Source of the DNA: Roseomonas haemaphysalidis | GTDB taxonomy: Bacteria; Pseudomonadota; Alphaproteobacteria; Acetobacterales; Acetobacteraceae | Reading direction: 5' to 3' | Length of the DNA stretch: 64,000 nt | Assembly: GCF_017355405.1 (NCBI RefSeq) | Contig: NZ_CP061177.1 | Span: 1,905,001-1,969,000 of the forward strand | Shown: positions 43,578-49,909 of the stretch, piece by piece | Position numbering within the stretch: position 1 is the stretch's first letter | Layout: each line of letters starts with the position of its first letter | Program-made: the position numbers and the translations under genes | Notes under the pieces: generated by a model | Seen by the model: only the letters and a program-made list of their open reading frames with translations | What the model was told of the DNA's origin: nothing | The model's database searches: none

Positions 43578-43871
43578 GGTTGCCGACGTGGTCACCACGG
43601 CACGCGAAGGTTGCAATGCCGGGGCCTGGGACCTGTCATGTGGCGCCTGAGGCACAAACCAGTTTCATAGCTTTGCACCTGCCTTGAAAAAACTCTATGA
43701 GAGGTGATCCTGTCGGTGGTCCGGCCCAGCGCTGCGCCGGTCGCTGACGTGTCGGCCCGTGGCGTCCGTGCGAACCAAGGAACTGCGTAGTATGGCCCAT
43801 CGGCGGACACGGCATGATGCCACGCATCGATGCGCGGCATGGCTGCCGCGGCGTGTACGCGGAGCGTTCCC
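43578..43871 (+). promoter_or_regulatory. Gene-free region upstream of the signalling cluster, with a possible promoter
   Basis: I find no supported gene in these 294 bases. TTGCAC at 43673-43678 and TATGAG at 43696-43701 are 17 bases apart and resemble a weak sigma-70 promoter in the least GC-rich part. It would drive the REC-PAS-GGDEF-EAL gene and probably the RpfC-type kinase behind it. The match is partial. Confidence 0.35.
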
Positions 43872-45998
43872 TTGCCGCTGATCGCCATCATCGACGACCA
43901 GAGCACCAACCGCCGCATCTACAGCATGCTGGTCCGCTCCTGCGGGCCGGACATGGAGGTGCGCGACTTCGCGGACCCGCTGCTGGCGCTGGAATGGATG
44001 GCGTCGAGCCGCCCCGACCTGATCATCACGGACTACCGCATGCCTGGCATGGACGGTGCCGACATGGCGCAGGCCGTGCGCTCCATCCCGCACTGCCTGC
44101 ACACGCCGGTGATCGTGATCACCGCCTATGACGAGCCGAACTTCCGCCTGCGGGCGCTGGAAGCCGGCGCCAGCGACTTCGTGCAGACGCCGATCCGCCA
44201 TTCCGACTTCCAGGGCCGCGTGCGCGCCATGCTGGACGGCCAGGTGGCGCCGCCGCCGCCGCCGCTGCCCGTGCCGGAGGCGCCGCGCCCCGGCCTGCCG
44301 CCGGCCGCCTTTCCCCTGATGCAGGTGGACGGGCTGATGCAGGTGATCGGCACCATCCCGGCGCTGATCTCCGTGTCCGACCTGCAGGGCGTCTGCCAGT
44401 TCGCCAACGCCGCCTTCGCCAAGCATGTCGGGCTATCCGCCGCCGAATGCGTCGGCCGCCCGGTGGTGGAGCTGATCCGCGACCAGGAAGGCCGGCGCGT
44501 GGCGCTGAACCGCCTGGTGATGGAGCGCGGCGAACAGCTGCCGAGCTACGAGGAAAGCGTGGCCGACCCGGACGGCGTGCCGCTGACGCTGCTCACCACC
44601 AAGTCGCCGCTGCGCGACGCCGAGGGCGCGGTGGTCGCCATCCTGACCACCTCCATCGACATCACCGACCAGAAGAACGCGCAGTGGCACCTGCAGCACC
44701 TGGCCGGGCATGACGCGCTGACCGGCCTGCCCAACCGCTCGCTGCTGACGCGGCGGATCGAGAGCAGCCTGGCCCAGGCGGCCCAGGCGGGGGAGCAGGG
44801 GGCGCTGCTGTTTCTCGACCTCGACCACTTCAAGACCGTGAACGACTCCCTCGGCCACGTGTTCGGCGACCAGCTGCTGGTGGCCGTGGCCCGCATCCTG
44901 CGCGACAACGTCGGCCCGCGCGACACCGTGGCCCGCCTGGGCGGCGACGAGTTCGCCATCCTGCAGGAAGGCATCAACGGGCCGGGCGACGCGGCGGCGC
45001 TGGCCGGGCAGATCGGCCACGCGCTGAGCCAGCCGCTGAACCTGCGCGGGCACAGCATCAACATCAGCTCGTCCATCGGCATCACCATGTTTCCGCAGGA
45101 CGCCAACGGCAGCGACGAGCTGTTGAAGAACGCCGACCTCGCGATGTACGGCGCCAAGGCCGAGGGCCGGCACGGCCACCGCTTCTTTTCCATCGAGCAG
45201 CGCCGCAAGGTGGAACACGCCCAGTCGCTGGACACGGGGCTGCGCGAAGGGCTGCGGGCCAACGAGTTCCTGCTGCACTACCAGCCGCAGTTCCACCTGG
45301 GGAGCGGCCGCGCCACCAGCGTCGAGGCGCTGATCCGCTGGCAGCGCCCGGGCCACGGGCTGGTTTCCCCCGGCACCTTTCTGCGCGCGGCCGAGGACAG
45401 CGGCTTTATCGTGCAGATCACCGAATGGGTGGTGCGCCAGGCCTGCGCGCAGATGCGCGCCTGGATGCAGCGCGGCATCGCGCCCGACCGGGTGGCGATC
45501 AACGTCTCGCCCACGCTGTTCCGCCGCCTCGACATGCACCGGCTGGTGACGGAAGCCGCCCGCACCGCCGGCGTGCCGCTGTCCATGCTGGAGCTGGAGC
45601 TGACCGAGGGGGTGATGATGGACCGCTCGGCCGCCACGCTGGAAACGCTGCACGCCCTGCGGCGCGACGGCGTCAGCCTGGCGCTAGACGACTTCGGCAC
45701 CGGCTTCTCCTCGCTCGACTACCTGCGGCGCTTCAAGGTCAACCGCATCAAGATCGACCAGTCCTTCGTGCGCAACCTGCCGCAGAACGGGGAGGACGCG
45801 TCCATCGTGCGCACCATCATCGGCCTGACCCACGGGCTCGGCCTCCTGGTGGTGGCCGAGGGGGTGGAAACACAGGAGGCGCTGGACTTCCTCCGGGCCG
45901 AGGGTTGCGACGAGGTGCAGGGCTTCCACCTCGGCCGCCCCTGCGGCCCGGACGACTGCGCGCAGAATTTCCTTGTCCTGCGCCGGGCCGCCGGCTAG
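43872..45998 (+). CDS. REC-PAS-GGDEF-EAL c-di-GMP response regulator, partner of the RpfC-type kinase
   Basis: A 708-residue cytoplasmic regulator. The receiver has D54 in LIITDYRMPGMDG, then a PAS domain (about 155-270; MQVIGTIPALISVSDLQGVCQF), a GGDEF domain with intact GGDEF near 357, and an EAL domain (SVEALIRWQRPG, LALDDFGTGFSSLDYL, ITEWVVRQAC). Both cyclase and phosphodiesterase motifs look usable; no RxxD inhibition site precedes GGDEF. I chose the TTG at 43872, eight bases after GGAG, because it puts the receiver Asp at 54; ATG at 43830 is the alternative. It lies 63 bases before the RpfC-type kinase. Confidence 0.88.
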   Translation: MPLIAIIDDQSTNRRIYSMLVRSCGPDMEVRDFADPLLALEWMASSRPDLIITDYRMPGMDGADMAQAVRSIPHCLHTPVIVITAYDEPNFRLRALEAGASDFVQTPIRHSDFQGRVRAMLDGQVAPPPPPLPVPEAPRPGLPPAAFPLMQVDGLMQVIGTIPALISVSDLQGVCQFANAAFAKHVGLSAAECVGRPVVELIRDQEGRRVALNRLVMERGEQLPSYEESVADPDGVPLTLLTTKSPLRDAEGAVVAILTTSIDITDQKNAQWHLQHLAGHDALTGLPNRSLLTRRIESSLAQAAQAGEQGALLFLDLDHFKTVNDSLGHVFGDQLLVAVARILRDNVGPRDTVARLGGDEFAILQEGINGPGDAAALAGQIGHALSQPLNLRGHSINISSSIGITMFPQDANGSDELLKNADLAMYGAKAEGRHGHRFFSIEQRRKVEHAQSLDTGLREGLRANEFLLHYQPQFHLGSGRATSVEALIRWQRPGHGLVSPGTFLRAAEDSGFIVQITEWVVRQACAQMRAWMQRGIAPDRVAINVSPTLFRRLDMHRLVTEAARTAGVPLSMLELELTEGVMMDRSAATLETLHALRRDGVSLALDDFGTGFSSLDYLRRFKVNRIKIDQSFVRNLPQNGEDASIVRTIIGLTHGLGLLVVAEGVETQEALDFLRAEGCDEVQGFHLGRPCGPDDCAQNFLVLRRAAG

Positions 45999-46061
45999 CG
46001 CCGGAGGGTTCGGGCAAGGCCTGGCACCAGAGCCGGGCCGCCTGGCGGGATATCTGGTGCG

Positions 46062-48542
46062 ATGCTGAGGAAAGCCGTTCAGCGGTTCGCGGCGCGCCTG
46101 CGGGCGCGGCCCGACAAGGAACACGAGATCACCCTCAACCGGCTGGTGATCGCGCTGGTCGTCGGCTTCTACCTGTTCCTGCTGCTGCCGGCCGACCCGG
46201 CGCTGGACACCGCGCGCCTGCTGTGCGCCGCCTTCGTGCTGGGCGCCATCGGCCTGTCCGCGCATCTGGCGTGGCGGCCCGGCGTGTCCGTGCCGCGGCG
46301 CATCTGCGGCATGCTGCTGGACCTCGGCGTGCTCACCGCCGGCATGGCCGTGGCGGCGCCGGTGATCGCGGCGCTGTACCCGCTCTACCTGTGGGTGATC
46401 CTGGGCTACGGCTTCCGCTACGGGCTGCGCTACCTGTTCGCGGCGGCGGGGCTGTCGGTCGGGCTGTTCGGCGGCATCGTCCACCTGACGGACTACTGGC
46501 AGCAGAACTACCCGCTCGGCATCGGGCTGCTGCTGGGGCTGGTGATCCTGCCGCTCTACGCCGCCAGCCTGGTGCGCAAGCTGTCCCACGCGCGCGACGT
46601 GGCCCAGCAGGCCAACGAGGCCAAGAGCCTGTTTCTGGCCAGCGTCAGCCACGAGCTGCGCACGCCGCTCAACGCCGTCAGCGGCATGAGCGACCTGTTG
46701 CGCAATTCCGGCCTGAACCCGGCGCAGCTCGACATGCTGCGCACCATCCGCGCCTCCACCGGCCGGCTGGTGTCGCTGATCGACGACCTGCTCAACGTGT
46801 CGCGCATCGATGCCGGCCACGTGACCTTCGAGGCGACGCTGCTGGACCCGGTGGAGGTGCTGCGCGACACCATGCGGCTGGTGGCGCCGCAGGCGCTGGA
46901 AAAGGGCCTGCGGCTGTACCTGCACGTGACGCCGCGCACCGCCCGCGCCGTGCTGGCCGACCGCCGGCGGCTGGGCGAGATCACGCTGAACCTGCTGGCC
47001 AACGCCGTGAAGTTCACCCGCCAGGGCGCCGTCACCGTGTTGCTGGACGTGGAGGACGGCGGCGCGCAGCGCGGCCCCGTGCTGCGGGTGGAGGTGGAGG
47101 ACACCGGCATCGGCATCGCGCCCGCCGCGCAGGAGCGGATCTTCGACACCTTCACCCAGGCCGACAAGACCATCGCCAACGACTTCGGCGGCACCGGGCT
47201 CGGCCTCGCCATCTCGCGCCGGCTGGTGCGGCTGCAGGGCGGCGACATCGGCGTGCGCAGCCAGCCGGGGCGGGGCAGCACCTTCTGGTTCACCCTGCCG
47301 GCACCGCTGGGCGCCGCGCCGGCGCTGCCGATCGGGCGCTGGCACGTGGTGCTGCAGGGCATGGAGCCGGAGGACCGGGCTGCCGTCGGCGCCGTGCTGG
47401 CGGCGGAGGGGCTGGAATTCACCGAAACGAATTGGGGCACACCGCTGCCGCCATCCCTGCCGCGCGACGTGGTATTGATGCGCTCCGCCGCGCCGCCCGC
47501 CACCAACGAACCCGAGGAAGACTCCGCCGACATGCCGCTGCTGCTCGTTGAATCCCGCAGAAACGGAGCCGAGCTTCCGGGGCTGCCGGCGGCCGGCCAG
47601 CGCGGCCGCGCCTTCGCCACCCTGGCCGCGTCCCGCCTGCGGGCCGAGCTGCCGGCGGCATTCCGCGCGCTGACCACGGCGCGCCAGGCCGCCAACGACG
47701 ACGACGTGCCGATGATCCGCCGGCGGGACAACGGCCGGCGCATCCTGGTGGTGGACGACAACCAGGTGAACCGCATGGTCATCTCGCGCATCCTGGAAGC
47801 GGGCGGCCACCACGTGACGCTCGCCAGCGACGGCGAGCAGGCGCTGGACCGGCTGGAGGATGGCGCCTTCGACCTGGTGGCGATGGACCTCAACATGCCG
47901 GTGATGGACGGGATCGAGGCCACCAAGCTGTACCGCATGGCCTCGCTCGACCGCCCGCACCTGCCGATCGTGGCGCTGACCGCCGATGCCACCGCCTATG
48001 CGCGGGAGCGGGCGCTGGACGCCGGGATGGATGCCTGCGTCACCAAGCCGGTGGACGCCGTGGCGCTGCTGGAGCTGGTGGACAGCCTGGTGGAAGGCCG
48101 CCCCGCCGTGCTGCCCCGGGTGGTGGTGGCGCCGGCCCCGCCGCCGCCGGCCGCCGCCGCGCCGCAGCGCGCCGCCGGCGTGCTGAACCTGCGCATGCTG
48201 GACGACCTGATGCTGCTGGGCGGCAGCGAGTTCGTGTCGGACGTGATCGCCACCTTCATCAGCGACTCCGCCCGGCACCTGCAGGCCCTGCAGCAGGACG
48301 CCGTGCGGGTCGATGCGCGGGCGTTCCGCGATAGCCTGCACGCGCTCCGCTCCGTCGCCTCCAATGTCGGCGCCGTGGCGCTGGCGGACCTGTGCGGCAC
48401 CTGGCAGGGGATCGAGGCCCCCGCCATCCAGGCCAACGGCCCGCAGATGACCGAACAGGTGAGCGAGGCGGTGCAGGCGGCGCGGGCGGCGCTGCTGCGC
48501 TGGCAGTCGCCGCCCCCGGTGCTGGTGTCCCGCAGCGGCTGA
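46062..48542 (+). CDS. RpfC-type hybrid sensor kinase (DSF receptor candidate)
   Basis: An 826-residue inner-membrane sensor. A short N-terminal segment (about 1-24, ending RPDKEHEITL) precedes five or six transmembrane helices (25-170), then HisKA with H197 (SHELRTPLNAV), an HATPase (NLLANAVKFTRQG, DTGIGIAP, GTGLGLAISRRLV), a receiver with D609 (AMDLNMPVMDG) and a C-terminal Hpt domain with H760 (DSLHALRSVASNVGA). This order and the N-terminus match RpfC of xanthomonads, whose N-terminus binds the fatty-acid signal DSF. A convergent rpfF-like gene starts 40 bases beyond. Assignment as DSF receptor is inference from architecture and context. Confidence 0.83.
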   Translation: MLRKAVQRFAARLRARPDKEHEITLNRLVIALVVGFYLFLLLPADPALDTARLLCAAFVLGAIGLSAHLAWRPGVSVPRRICGMLLDLGVLTAGMAVAAPVIAALYPLYLWVILGYGFRYGLRYLFAAAGLSVGLFGGIVHLTDYWQQNYPLGIGLLLGLVILPLYAASLVRKLSHARDVAQQANEAKSLFLASVSHELRTPLNAVSGMSDLLRNSGLNPAQLDMLRTIRASTGRLVSLIDDLLNVSRIDAGHVTFEATLLDPVEVLRDTMRLVAPQALEKGLRLYLHVTPRTARAVLADRRRLGEITLNLLANAVKFTRQGAVTVLLDVEDGGAQRGPVLRVEVEDTGIGIAPAAQERIFDTFTQADKTIANDFGGTGLGLAISRRLVRLQGGDIGVRSQPGRGSTFWFTLPAPLGAAPALPIGRWHVVLQGMEPEDRAAVGAVLAAEGLEFTETNWGTPLPPSLPRDVVLMRSAAPPATNEPEEDSADMPLLLVESRRNGAELPGLPAAGQRGRAFATLAASRLRAELPAAFRALTTARQAANDDDVPMIRRRDNGRRILVVDDNQVNRMVISRILEAGGHHVTLASDGEQALDRLEDGAFDLVAMDLNMPVMDGIEATKLYRMASLDRPHLPIVALTADATAYARERALDAGMDACVTKPVDAVALLELVDSLVEGRPAVLPRVVVAPAPPPPAAAAPQRAAGVLNLRMLDDLMLLGGSEFVSDVIATFISDSARHLQALQQDAVRVDARAFRDSLHALRSVASNVGAVALADLCGTWQGIEAPAIQANGPQMTEQVSEAVQAARAALLRWQSPPPVLVSRSG

Positions 48543-48581
48543 GCGGCCCGCGCCCAGCCGTGCCACGGGTGCCGCCGCCGT

Positions 48582-49532
48582 TCATTCGGCGGCCATGATC
48601 ATGCTGGACGACCGGTCGCGCCGCCGGTCCTGCGCCGCCGCCAGCCGCTCCATCTTGCGCAGGTCGGGCGCTTCCAGCCGCATTGCGGTGTCCACCCACA
48701 CGTCCACGATGTCGCGCAGTTCCTGCAGCGTGACGGGGGTGGCCAGGTTGCGCGCCTTGTGCACGGCGGCCATGGAGACATGGCGGCGGCCCTGCTTGCG
48801 GATCCAGGCCTGCAGCTCGGACACGCCCTGGCCCGGGGTCAGCAGCAGGTCCACCAGCCCGATCTCATGCAGTTCCTCGGCGGTGTAGATGCGGCCGCTC
48901 ATGATCATGCGCTCGGCCTGCACGGCACCGATGCGGCGGGCGATCAGGCTATAGGCGCCCATGCCGGGGAACAGGTTGAACAGCACCTCCGGCAGGCCGA
49001 ACTTGGTGCCGCGCTCGGCCGCGATCATGCCGCAGGACAGCGCCGTCTCGAAGCCGCCGCCCAGCGCGTCGCCCTGCACCAGCGCGATGGTGACCAGCGG
49101 CTGGTGATAGCAGGTGAGGTTGTTGTGCACGACCTCCACGCAGCGGTAGGCGTATTGCTGCAGCAGCGAACGATGCCCCTGGCGGACGGATTCCGCGAAC
49201 AGCCGCAGGTCGCCGCCCAGGTTGAACACGCCCGGGATGTTGGACGCGACCACGAAATGGTCGAAGGGGCGGGACTCATCGTTGGCGCCGGCCATCCAGC
49301 GGGTCAGGTCGGACTGCATGGTGCTCAGGTCGCGCAGCACGCTGGGGGACACGCAGGGGCGGCCGGTGGGCTGCAGGTTGCACCAGAAGGTGCGCTCGGC
49401 ACTGTCCAGGTGAACGCTGATATCCGTGAAGTTGCGGTCGAATACCTGAGTCGGCGCCAATGCGCGCGAGTGATTGACAGAAGACGCCGCAGTGGCTTCA
49501 GAAACGGCGAAGAAGGGGGGGATTTGCGTCAT
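48582..49532 (-). CDS. rpfF: RpfF-type DSF synthase (crotonase fold)
   Basis: A 316-residue crotonase-fold enzyme matching RpfF, which makes cis-2-unsaturated fatty-acid signals from acyl-ACP by dehydration and thioester cleavage. NIPGVFNLGGDLRLFAE, ALVQGDALGGGFETALSC and GLPEVLFNLFPGMGAYSLIARR are RpfF signatures. The catalytic glutamates are E162 (GGGFE) and E182 (LPEVLFN), 20 residues apart as E141/E161 in Xanthomonas RpfF. I chose the ATG at 49532, seven bases after GGAG. Ordinary enoyl-CoA hydratases are shorter and lack the GMGAYS stretch. It is convergent with the RpfC-type kinase gene. Confidence 0.87.
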   Translation of the reverse strand: MTQIPPFFAVSEATAASSVNHSRALAPTQVFDRNFTDISVHLDSAERTFWCNLQPTGRPCVSPSVLRDLSTMQSDLTRWMAGANDESRPFDHFVVASNIPGVFNLGGDLRLFAESVRQGHRSLLQQYAYRCVEVVHNNLTCYHQPLVTIALVQGDALGGGFETALSCGMIAAERGTKFGLPEVLFNLFPGMGAYSLIARRIGAVQAERMIMSGRIYTAEELHEIGLVDLLLTPGQGVSELQAWIRKQGRRHVSMAAVHKARNLATPVTLQELRDIVDVWVDTAMRLEAPDLRKMERLAAAQDRRRDRSSSMIMAAE

Positions 49533-49909
49533 AGGAAATCTCCGTTGCATGGCGGTCGTTTCGACACGGACGCGAAATGCGTCTTTGCCCGCCAGGCACA
49601 GATGATATTCTTTTTTCAGCCGAACATTATCATTGGCAAATCAATGCCCCGCAGATTCAGCTTTCTTGTGCGAATCGACACCGAATCGTCTCAATAACAA
49701 AACGGAGTCCACGCAGCGGATTCGTTGATAACCAAAGAATTAACGCCGTCTATGCGAAAAACCGCGGGTTGCATGCAACCGATGCAAACCCGATTCGGCG
49801 CCAAGCCGCCCGGCCTCGCGCTGATGCGAAACGCCGGCAGGTTTACAGGCCAGGGACGGAGGGGGCGGGGAGGGGGCGGCGGCCGGTCGCCGCCGCCCCT
49901 TTGTCCGGC
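49533..49909 (-). promoter_or_regulatory. AT-rich regulatory region upstream of rpfF, with a 14-bp palindrome
   Basis: These 377 bases hold no supported gene and are clearly richer in A and T than the neighbours (about 49600-49770), as expected of the rpfF promoter. A perfect palindrome GGTTGCATGCAACC lies at 49767-49780, about 240 bases upstream of the rpfF start, and could be an operator. The right end borders the stop of the binding-protein gene. I could not fix a convincing -35/-10 pair. Confidence 0.5.

Follow-up and report, generated by a model that had tools for sequence, protein, structure and literature searches.

What does a crotonase gene that faces a hybrid histidine kinase gene in Roseomonas haemaphysalidis do: does it belong to a diffusible signal factor (DSF) system of the xanthomonad kind and, if so, through which output would that system act? 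The locus occupies positions 43872–49532 of the window, the whole 64,000-nucleotide stretch of contig NZ_CP061177.1 analysed here, from a genome assembly of 4.9 Mb in 8 contigs. It holds three intact genes, for a response regulator with REC, PAS, GGDEF and EAL domains, an RpfC-type hybrid kinase and an RpfF-type crotonase. A preliminary description of the same DNA had named these as three neighbouring DSF-type genes, and all three family assignments hold. We put the probability that they constitute a DSF-family signalling module at roughly 0.75. By its sequence, the locus is a variant of the DSF system, found in Acetobacteraceae and other Alphaproteobacteria, in which the output of RpfG has been replaced; its parts have been annotated before, and it seems to represent a known circuit rewired in the Alphaproteobacteria.

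The crotonase is encoded on the reverse strand (48582–49532, 316 residues from an ATG at 49532 preceded by GGAGA; the open frame is 48582–49550, so that in this longer frame its catalytic residues E162 and E182 are numbered E168 and E188). Its closest solved relatives are RpfF-type, 7zq7 and 3m6m at about 210 bits and 5fus and 6dgn at about 170 bits, whereas the best non-RpfF crotonase in the PDB reaches 65 bits and the next-best crotonase of its own genome, which contains one RpfF-type protein, reaches 53 bits. In a tree of 92 rows, with classes sampled randomly and with three crotonases of the host genome and one plant enzyme as outgroup, the 88 RpfF-type proteins, 3m6m, 7zq7 and 6dgn among them, were split from the four outgroup crotonases with a support of 99 (starred). 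Clustering outside RpfF had been set as a test by which the preliminary description could fail; the assignment came through it, the crotonase grouping with the solved RpfF proteins. The glutamate pair E162/E182, also named there, is present and aligns with E141 and E161, the catalytic residues of Xanthomonas campestris (Xcc) RpfF (PMC9040811, excerpt), in agreement with the two catalytic glutamates ascribed to RpfF elsewhere (PMC4504480, excerpt). Across 182 distinct loci, defined below, the first glutamate is present in 181, with one gap, and the second in 176, the remaining 6 having aspartate; the counted glycines of the FNLGG and GGGFE motifs are glycine in 180 or 181 loci, the remainder being gaps. 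At one locus (L112, G088:C1:4491903-4492756), where rpfF has an RpfC and a REC-PAS regulator as neighbours, the synthase gene is broken into two frames, which may reflect either decay of the synthase or a sequencing error. The nearness of the window's RpfF to that of Aureimonas (59–61% identity) had suggested transfer of the whole module, a proposal not adopted, as the kinase and regulator have other nearest relatives.

Convergent with the crotonase gene lies the kinase gene (46062–48542, forward strand, 826 residues), in the layout of xanthomonads that the preliminary description had recognized, although the gap between the two is 39 bases (48543–48581) and not 40. The HisKA, HATPase, REC and Hpt domains all score above their Pfam cut-offs, an alignment of 13 sequences (the window's and 12 relatives) shows no variation at H197, D609 and H760, and hydropathy indicates about 5–6 membrane segments. 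The N-terminal segment RPDKEHEIT (residues 16–24, 46107–46133, forward strand) stands, by alignment, at the site of the DSF-binding segment of Xanthomonas RpfC. The same features had been named in the preliminary description. When residues 1–180 were searched in nine whole genomes (E 0.001), they matched only the RpfC open reading frame (ORF) at the rpf locus, at 64–125 bits outside the window's own genome; in G391, two stretches of one RpfC ORF match.

Xanthomonas rpfH encodes an RpfC-like input domain. Arrangements reminiscent of it were seen at Inquilinus-type loci L117, L118 and L121, where the regulator and rpfC are separated by one or two additional genes that encode an RpfC-like membrane input; the two of L121, scanned with Pfam, show a HisKA domain only. 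At G391:C23:6615-7703 (in L204), a single 924-residue frame carries two RpfC input domains ahead of the kinase core, a picture that suggests a fusion of rpfH and rpfC or their lying in one frame; frames equally long occur in L212 and L220.

The regulator gene precedes that of the kinase on the same strand, 63 bases away, with no other gene between. Its ORF spans 43830–45998 and is open from an ATG at 43830; the likelier start is a TTG at 43872, preceded by GGAG, because the relatives' regulators examined start there, giving a protein of 708 residues (43872–45998). The Pfam domains PF00072, PF08448/PF00989, PF00990 and PF00563 confirm the earlier claim of a cyclic di-GMP (c-di-GMP) response regulator and give its architecture as REC-PAS-GGDEF-EAL, and the GGDEF and EAL motifs are intact. 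Seven of the genomes tested carry an HD-GYP regulator at the rpf locus, and in 7/7 the window's REC had the receiver of that regulator as its top match, at 71.9–96.3 bits versus 48–59 bits for the runner-up. A REC tree placed 43 sampled rpf-locus receivers, with four kinds of output, on one side of a branch with a support of 98 (starred), opposite 21 other receivers from nine genomes (loci L243–L263), which are most, not all, of the next-best matches and include two identical rows; the inner order of the tree is unsure, with few columns and long branches, the window's REC itself being on one. This tree and the GGDEF-EAL tree described below used random parts of the classes. From the top matches and the clade it follows that the window's receiver is an RpfG receiver joined to an output that is not that of RpfG; judged by these comparisons, it shares an ancestor with the receiver of Xanthomonas-type RpfG. 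The regulator is not to be filed as RpfG, because GGDEF-EAL stands where HD-GYP would be, and the HD-GYP output appears to have been replaced. The only HD_5 match in the host genome lies away from the locus, in a 253-residue ORF too short to include a full receiver. The term 'complete-looking' in the preliminary description conceals that the regulator is not RpfG: it combines the receiver of RpfG with a PAS-GGDEF-EAL output.

Exact GGDEF was found in 63/72 regulators and exact EAL in 68/72. The possibility that the regulator is an RpfR with an acquired receiver is not claimed: of five genomes in which a GGDEF-EAL protein is linked to rpfF, the window's PAS-GGDEF-EAL matched that protein best in two (G619 and G336) and did not in G546, G576 and G568, and in the GGDEF-EAL tree nine RpfR sequences taken from outside the Alphaproteobacteria stand as a separate group (support 100, starred) whose link to the regulators has a support of only 85. 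A tentative proposal, which we consider doubtful, is that the regulator responds to DSF through two inputs, with its REC phosphorylated by RpfC and its PAS domain binding the fatty acid directly, as the PAS of RpfR does, so that the Xanthomonas and Burkholderia circuits would be merged in one protein. Consistent with this, 12 loci whose regulators have no output domain retain REC-PAS, and a PAS domain is likewise present in the histidine-kinase versions examined with Pfam (5/5). The output-less regulators, which end after REC-PAS (L057, L062, L082, L085, L112, L140, L142, L163, L172, L173, L180 and L187), were seen in Roseicella, Crenalkalicoccus and several Roseomonas.

The recurrence of the gene set was followed through 218 stretches, which collapse to 182 distinct loci when those sharing one 100-residue RpfF core are counted once; L299 and L300 were not used, and HD-GYP was sought with one query domain, plus a motif in earlier locus scans. 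Besides the window, 42/62 phylum-level places were fetched, together with 24/24 others at class level and 72/72 of the family's other genomes in which RpfF was matched; because the named set comprises the top 80 of 587 relatives, the proportions given here are biased towards close relatives. Alphaproteobacteria account for 146 loci, of which 104 have RpfC and an rpf-type regulator and 6 have RpfC with no such regulator. Among the 104, the output is GGDEF-EAL in 70, a histidine kinase in 22 (two Skermanella loci being counted here by Pfam HisKA_2), PAS alone in 12 and HD-GYP in none. Outside the class (36 loci), all 10 loci with RpfC and a regulator have HD-GYP, 13 have RpfC without a regulator at the locus, and 12 of the other 13 carry a receiver-less GGDEF-EAL protein and no RpfC (the RpfR type). 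Of the 133 loci that have RpfC, 120 show it convergent with RpfF, the median gap being about 47 bases as estimated from stop-to-stop frames. In the loci examined, the alphaproteobacterial version keeps synthase, sensor and receiver, and exchanges the output for PAS-GGDEF-EAL, a second histidine kinase or nothing.

Across the 70 GGDEF-EAL loci, the distances of RpfF, RpfC and regulator correlate with one another (r 0.75–0.88; 0/2000 permutations as high), most strongly for regulator and kinase (r 0.88) and at r 0.81 for RpfF and RpfC, although such correlations could stem in part from shared ancestry alone. Since the gene set recurs and its distances correlate, the module is not a chance arrangement. 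Six flanking proteins of the window found no matches at 11 related loci except two at 32–33% identity, and the conserved unit is therefore the module itself. RpfF was detected in 73/299 genomes of the family (E 1e-25) and, at 1e-30, in 24/385 sampled from the class and 62/398 sampled from the phylum, each count including the window's genome. The chromosome had been called Acetobacteraceae-like, correctly in the broad sense: the family group of the window (f1) contains loci with RpfF cores identical to those of named Gluconacetobacter, Acidocella and Plastoroseomonas records, segments shorter than 230 residues having been dropped from that comparison. An Acidiphilium locus (L178) also carries all three genes. 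Within the window's genus (8 genomes), two genomes have its RpfF type (its own and G107), four have a type 46–49% identical and two have none. Records titled Mycobacterium (L117) and Terriglobia (L130) carry alphaproteobacterial-type rpfF, for which mistaken titles or contaminated bins are the probable cause.

Several observations weigh against a DSF signalling module, beginning with the synthase. The outgroup rows of the RpfF tree sit on long branches, and the NCBIfam equivalog model for RpfF, NF053515, gives 243.8 bits against a cut-off of 550, for which reason the crotonase is not filed as an RpfF equivalog; it passes the broader crotonase model NF006452 (355.6 versus a cut-off of 177). This shortfall and the general ECH_1 domain that the protein carries would fit an ordinary enoyl-CoA hydratase of fatty-acid oxidation lying beside an unrelated two-component pair. 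We consider that explanation most improbable: the scores to solved RpfF-type proteins, 170–210 bits, far exceed those to any other crotonase in the PDB or the genome, and both the tree placement and the gene linkage speak against it. As far as its sequence tells, the crotonase is a member of the wider RpfF clade, not of the narrow xanthomonad-type equivalog.

A second difficulty concerns the sensor. Residues R15, D17, S18, E19 and Q22 of X. campestris RpfC are reported to be essential for DSF sensing (PMC5391125, excerpt); at these five positions the window's kinase has R, D, K, E and I, so that S18 and Q22 are changed. The positions were placed by aligning its RPDKEHEI with the RPDSEHGQ of RpfC in genomes whose RpfF lies beside that of Xanthomonas, not with X. 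campestris RpfC itself. DSF perception by the window's kinase is accordingly less sure than by Xanthomonas RpfC. The kinase may be a fatty-acid sensor whose ligand, after a change of the sensor segment, is other than the product of its own RpfF, or is not of the DSF kind at all (another fatty acid or a membrane property), with RpfF mainly trimming acyl-ACPs. The lysine at S18 would fit this, as would the broad thioesterase activity of RpfF (PMC4504480, excerpt) and the Q22 position, which is M, I, L or T in 67/70 alphaproteobacterial GGDEF-EAL loci and Q in 2/70, but Q in 22/23 RpfC outside the Alphaproteobacteria, with one gap. Sorted by output, Q occurs in 21/22 histidine-kinase loci and 9/10 HD-GYP loci (one gap). 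A joint change of this residue with the output was considered and rejected: the kinase tree (112 rows) needs one residue change versus four output changes, and in two independent pairs on its starred branches the residue does not track the output. A single change on the tree makes the residue a lineage marker and, by itself, no sign of a changed ligand. Retention of E19 in 67/70 loci and of R, D and E in the window, together with the correlated RpfF and RpfC distances, speaks against this alternative, and we regard a different ligand as unlikely.

The third difficulty is that the set is not always whole. No RpfC was found within the fetched stretch at 36/146 alphaproteobacterial loci, 10 of which had less than 3 kb left downstream, and in the near kin L042–L044 the locus has RpfF and RpfC but lacks a regulator. 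The near kin would suit a kinase that mainly holds RpfF through its REC domain, and so controls signal synthesis, with the linked regulator fed by another kinase; RpfF and the RpfC receiver were solved together in 3m6m. That arrangement has few chances in our view, since the regulator and kinase genes lie side by side on one strand, this pair has the most strongly correlated distances of the three, and the receiver is that of RpfG.

The gene families, the common descent of receiver and sensor, the intact catalytic motifs and the conserved gene set are evident in these comparisons; from them we infer a signal, its binding, a phosphorelay and an effect on c-di-GMP. Most likely, RpfF would act on 3-hydroxyacyl-ACP by dehydration and thioester cleavage to give a cis-2-unsaturated fatty acid, as dehydration and release are described for RpfF (PMC4504480, excerpt); once this had accumulated, RpfC would most likely sense it by means of its membrane-flanking N-terminal segment. 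The kinase would then autophosphorylate at H197, from where phosphate would travel by way of D609 and H760 to the linked regulator's receiver. With HD-GYP replaced by PAS-GGDEF-EAL, phosphorylation is expected to act through the GGDEF and EAL domains, shifting a protein with both cyclase and phosphodiesterase domains and so either raising or lowering c-di-GMP.

Names such as 'DSF synthase' and 'two-component system sensor histidine kinase RpfC' are already given to such proteins in IMG, and RpfC-RpfG has been reported in Alphaproteobacteria from KEGG orthology (PMC8895600, excerpt), although the in-locus regulators found here are not HD-GYP proteins. A survey of acidophiles that includes Acidiphilium reports DSF systems in Leptospirillum and Acidithiobacillus (PMC9040811, excerpt), a survey of Acetobacteraceae metabolites has neither DSF nor rpf in its main text (PMC8776678), and an RpfB-like FadD in Bradyrhizobium is, by its title, the topic of PMC10226988. 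In the open-access literature searched, rpfF or DSF was joined with Acetobacteraceae or acetic acid bacteria only in a review of exopolysaccharides (PMC10304161), and nothing was found that joins RpfF, RpfC, Alphaproteobacteria and GGDEF, or DSF terms with Acidocella; no description of this DSF variant was found there, which does not imply its absence from print. If the module signals, DSF-type communication would also occur in the Acetobacteraceae, among them Gluconacetobacter, Acidocella and Roseomonas-type bacteria, as well as in further orders of the class, and the module would provide a natural test of transmission across the receiver–output junction and of the sensor residues that set ligand specificity.

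Two DSF pathways are distinguished, that of RpfC-RpfG having been discovered in xanthomonads and that of RpfR in Burkholderia; in the former, RpfC couples signal perception to phosphorylation of the regulator and also restrains DSF synthesis (PMC4504480, excerpt). The window's module resembles the Rpf system of X. campestris in having an RpfF-type synthase gene convergent with rpfC and a regulator gene ahead of rpfC on the same strand (Xanthomonas layout from PMC4504480, excerpt), in the RpfC domain order and sensor segment, and in a regulator receiver of the same clade. It differs in its PAS-GGDEF-EAL output in place of HD-GYP and in the K and I that replace S18 and Q22; there is no rpfH between regulator and kinase, as only 63 bases separate them, and no acyl-CoA ligase gene (rpfB) was found among the four neighbouring genes scanned. 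With the RpfF/RpfR systems of Burkholderia and enterobacteria it shares a PAS-GGDEF-EAL protein encoded near the RpfF gene, but RpfR has no receiver and its examined loci have no RpfC, whereas the window's regulator has a receiver, RpfC lies between it and RpfF, and the GGDEF-EAL tree does not place it in the RpfR clade. PA1396-PA1397 of Pseudomonas aeruginosa likewise includes a kinase with an RpfC-like input domain, but this kinase has no Hpt, an orphan Hpt protein leads to a DNA-binding regulator, and the system answers the signals of other species (PMC4504480, excerpt); in the window's module, by comparison, the kinase has an Hpt of its own, and both a GGDEF-EAL regulator and RpfF are encoded alongside it.

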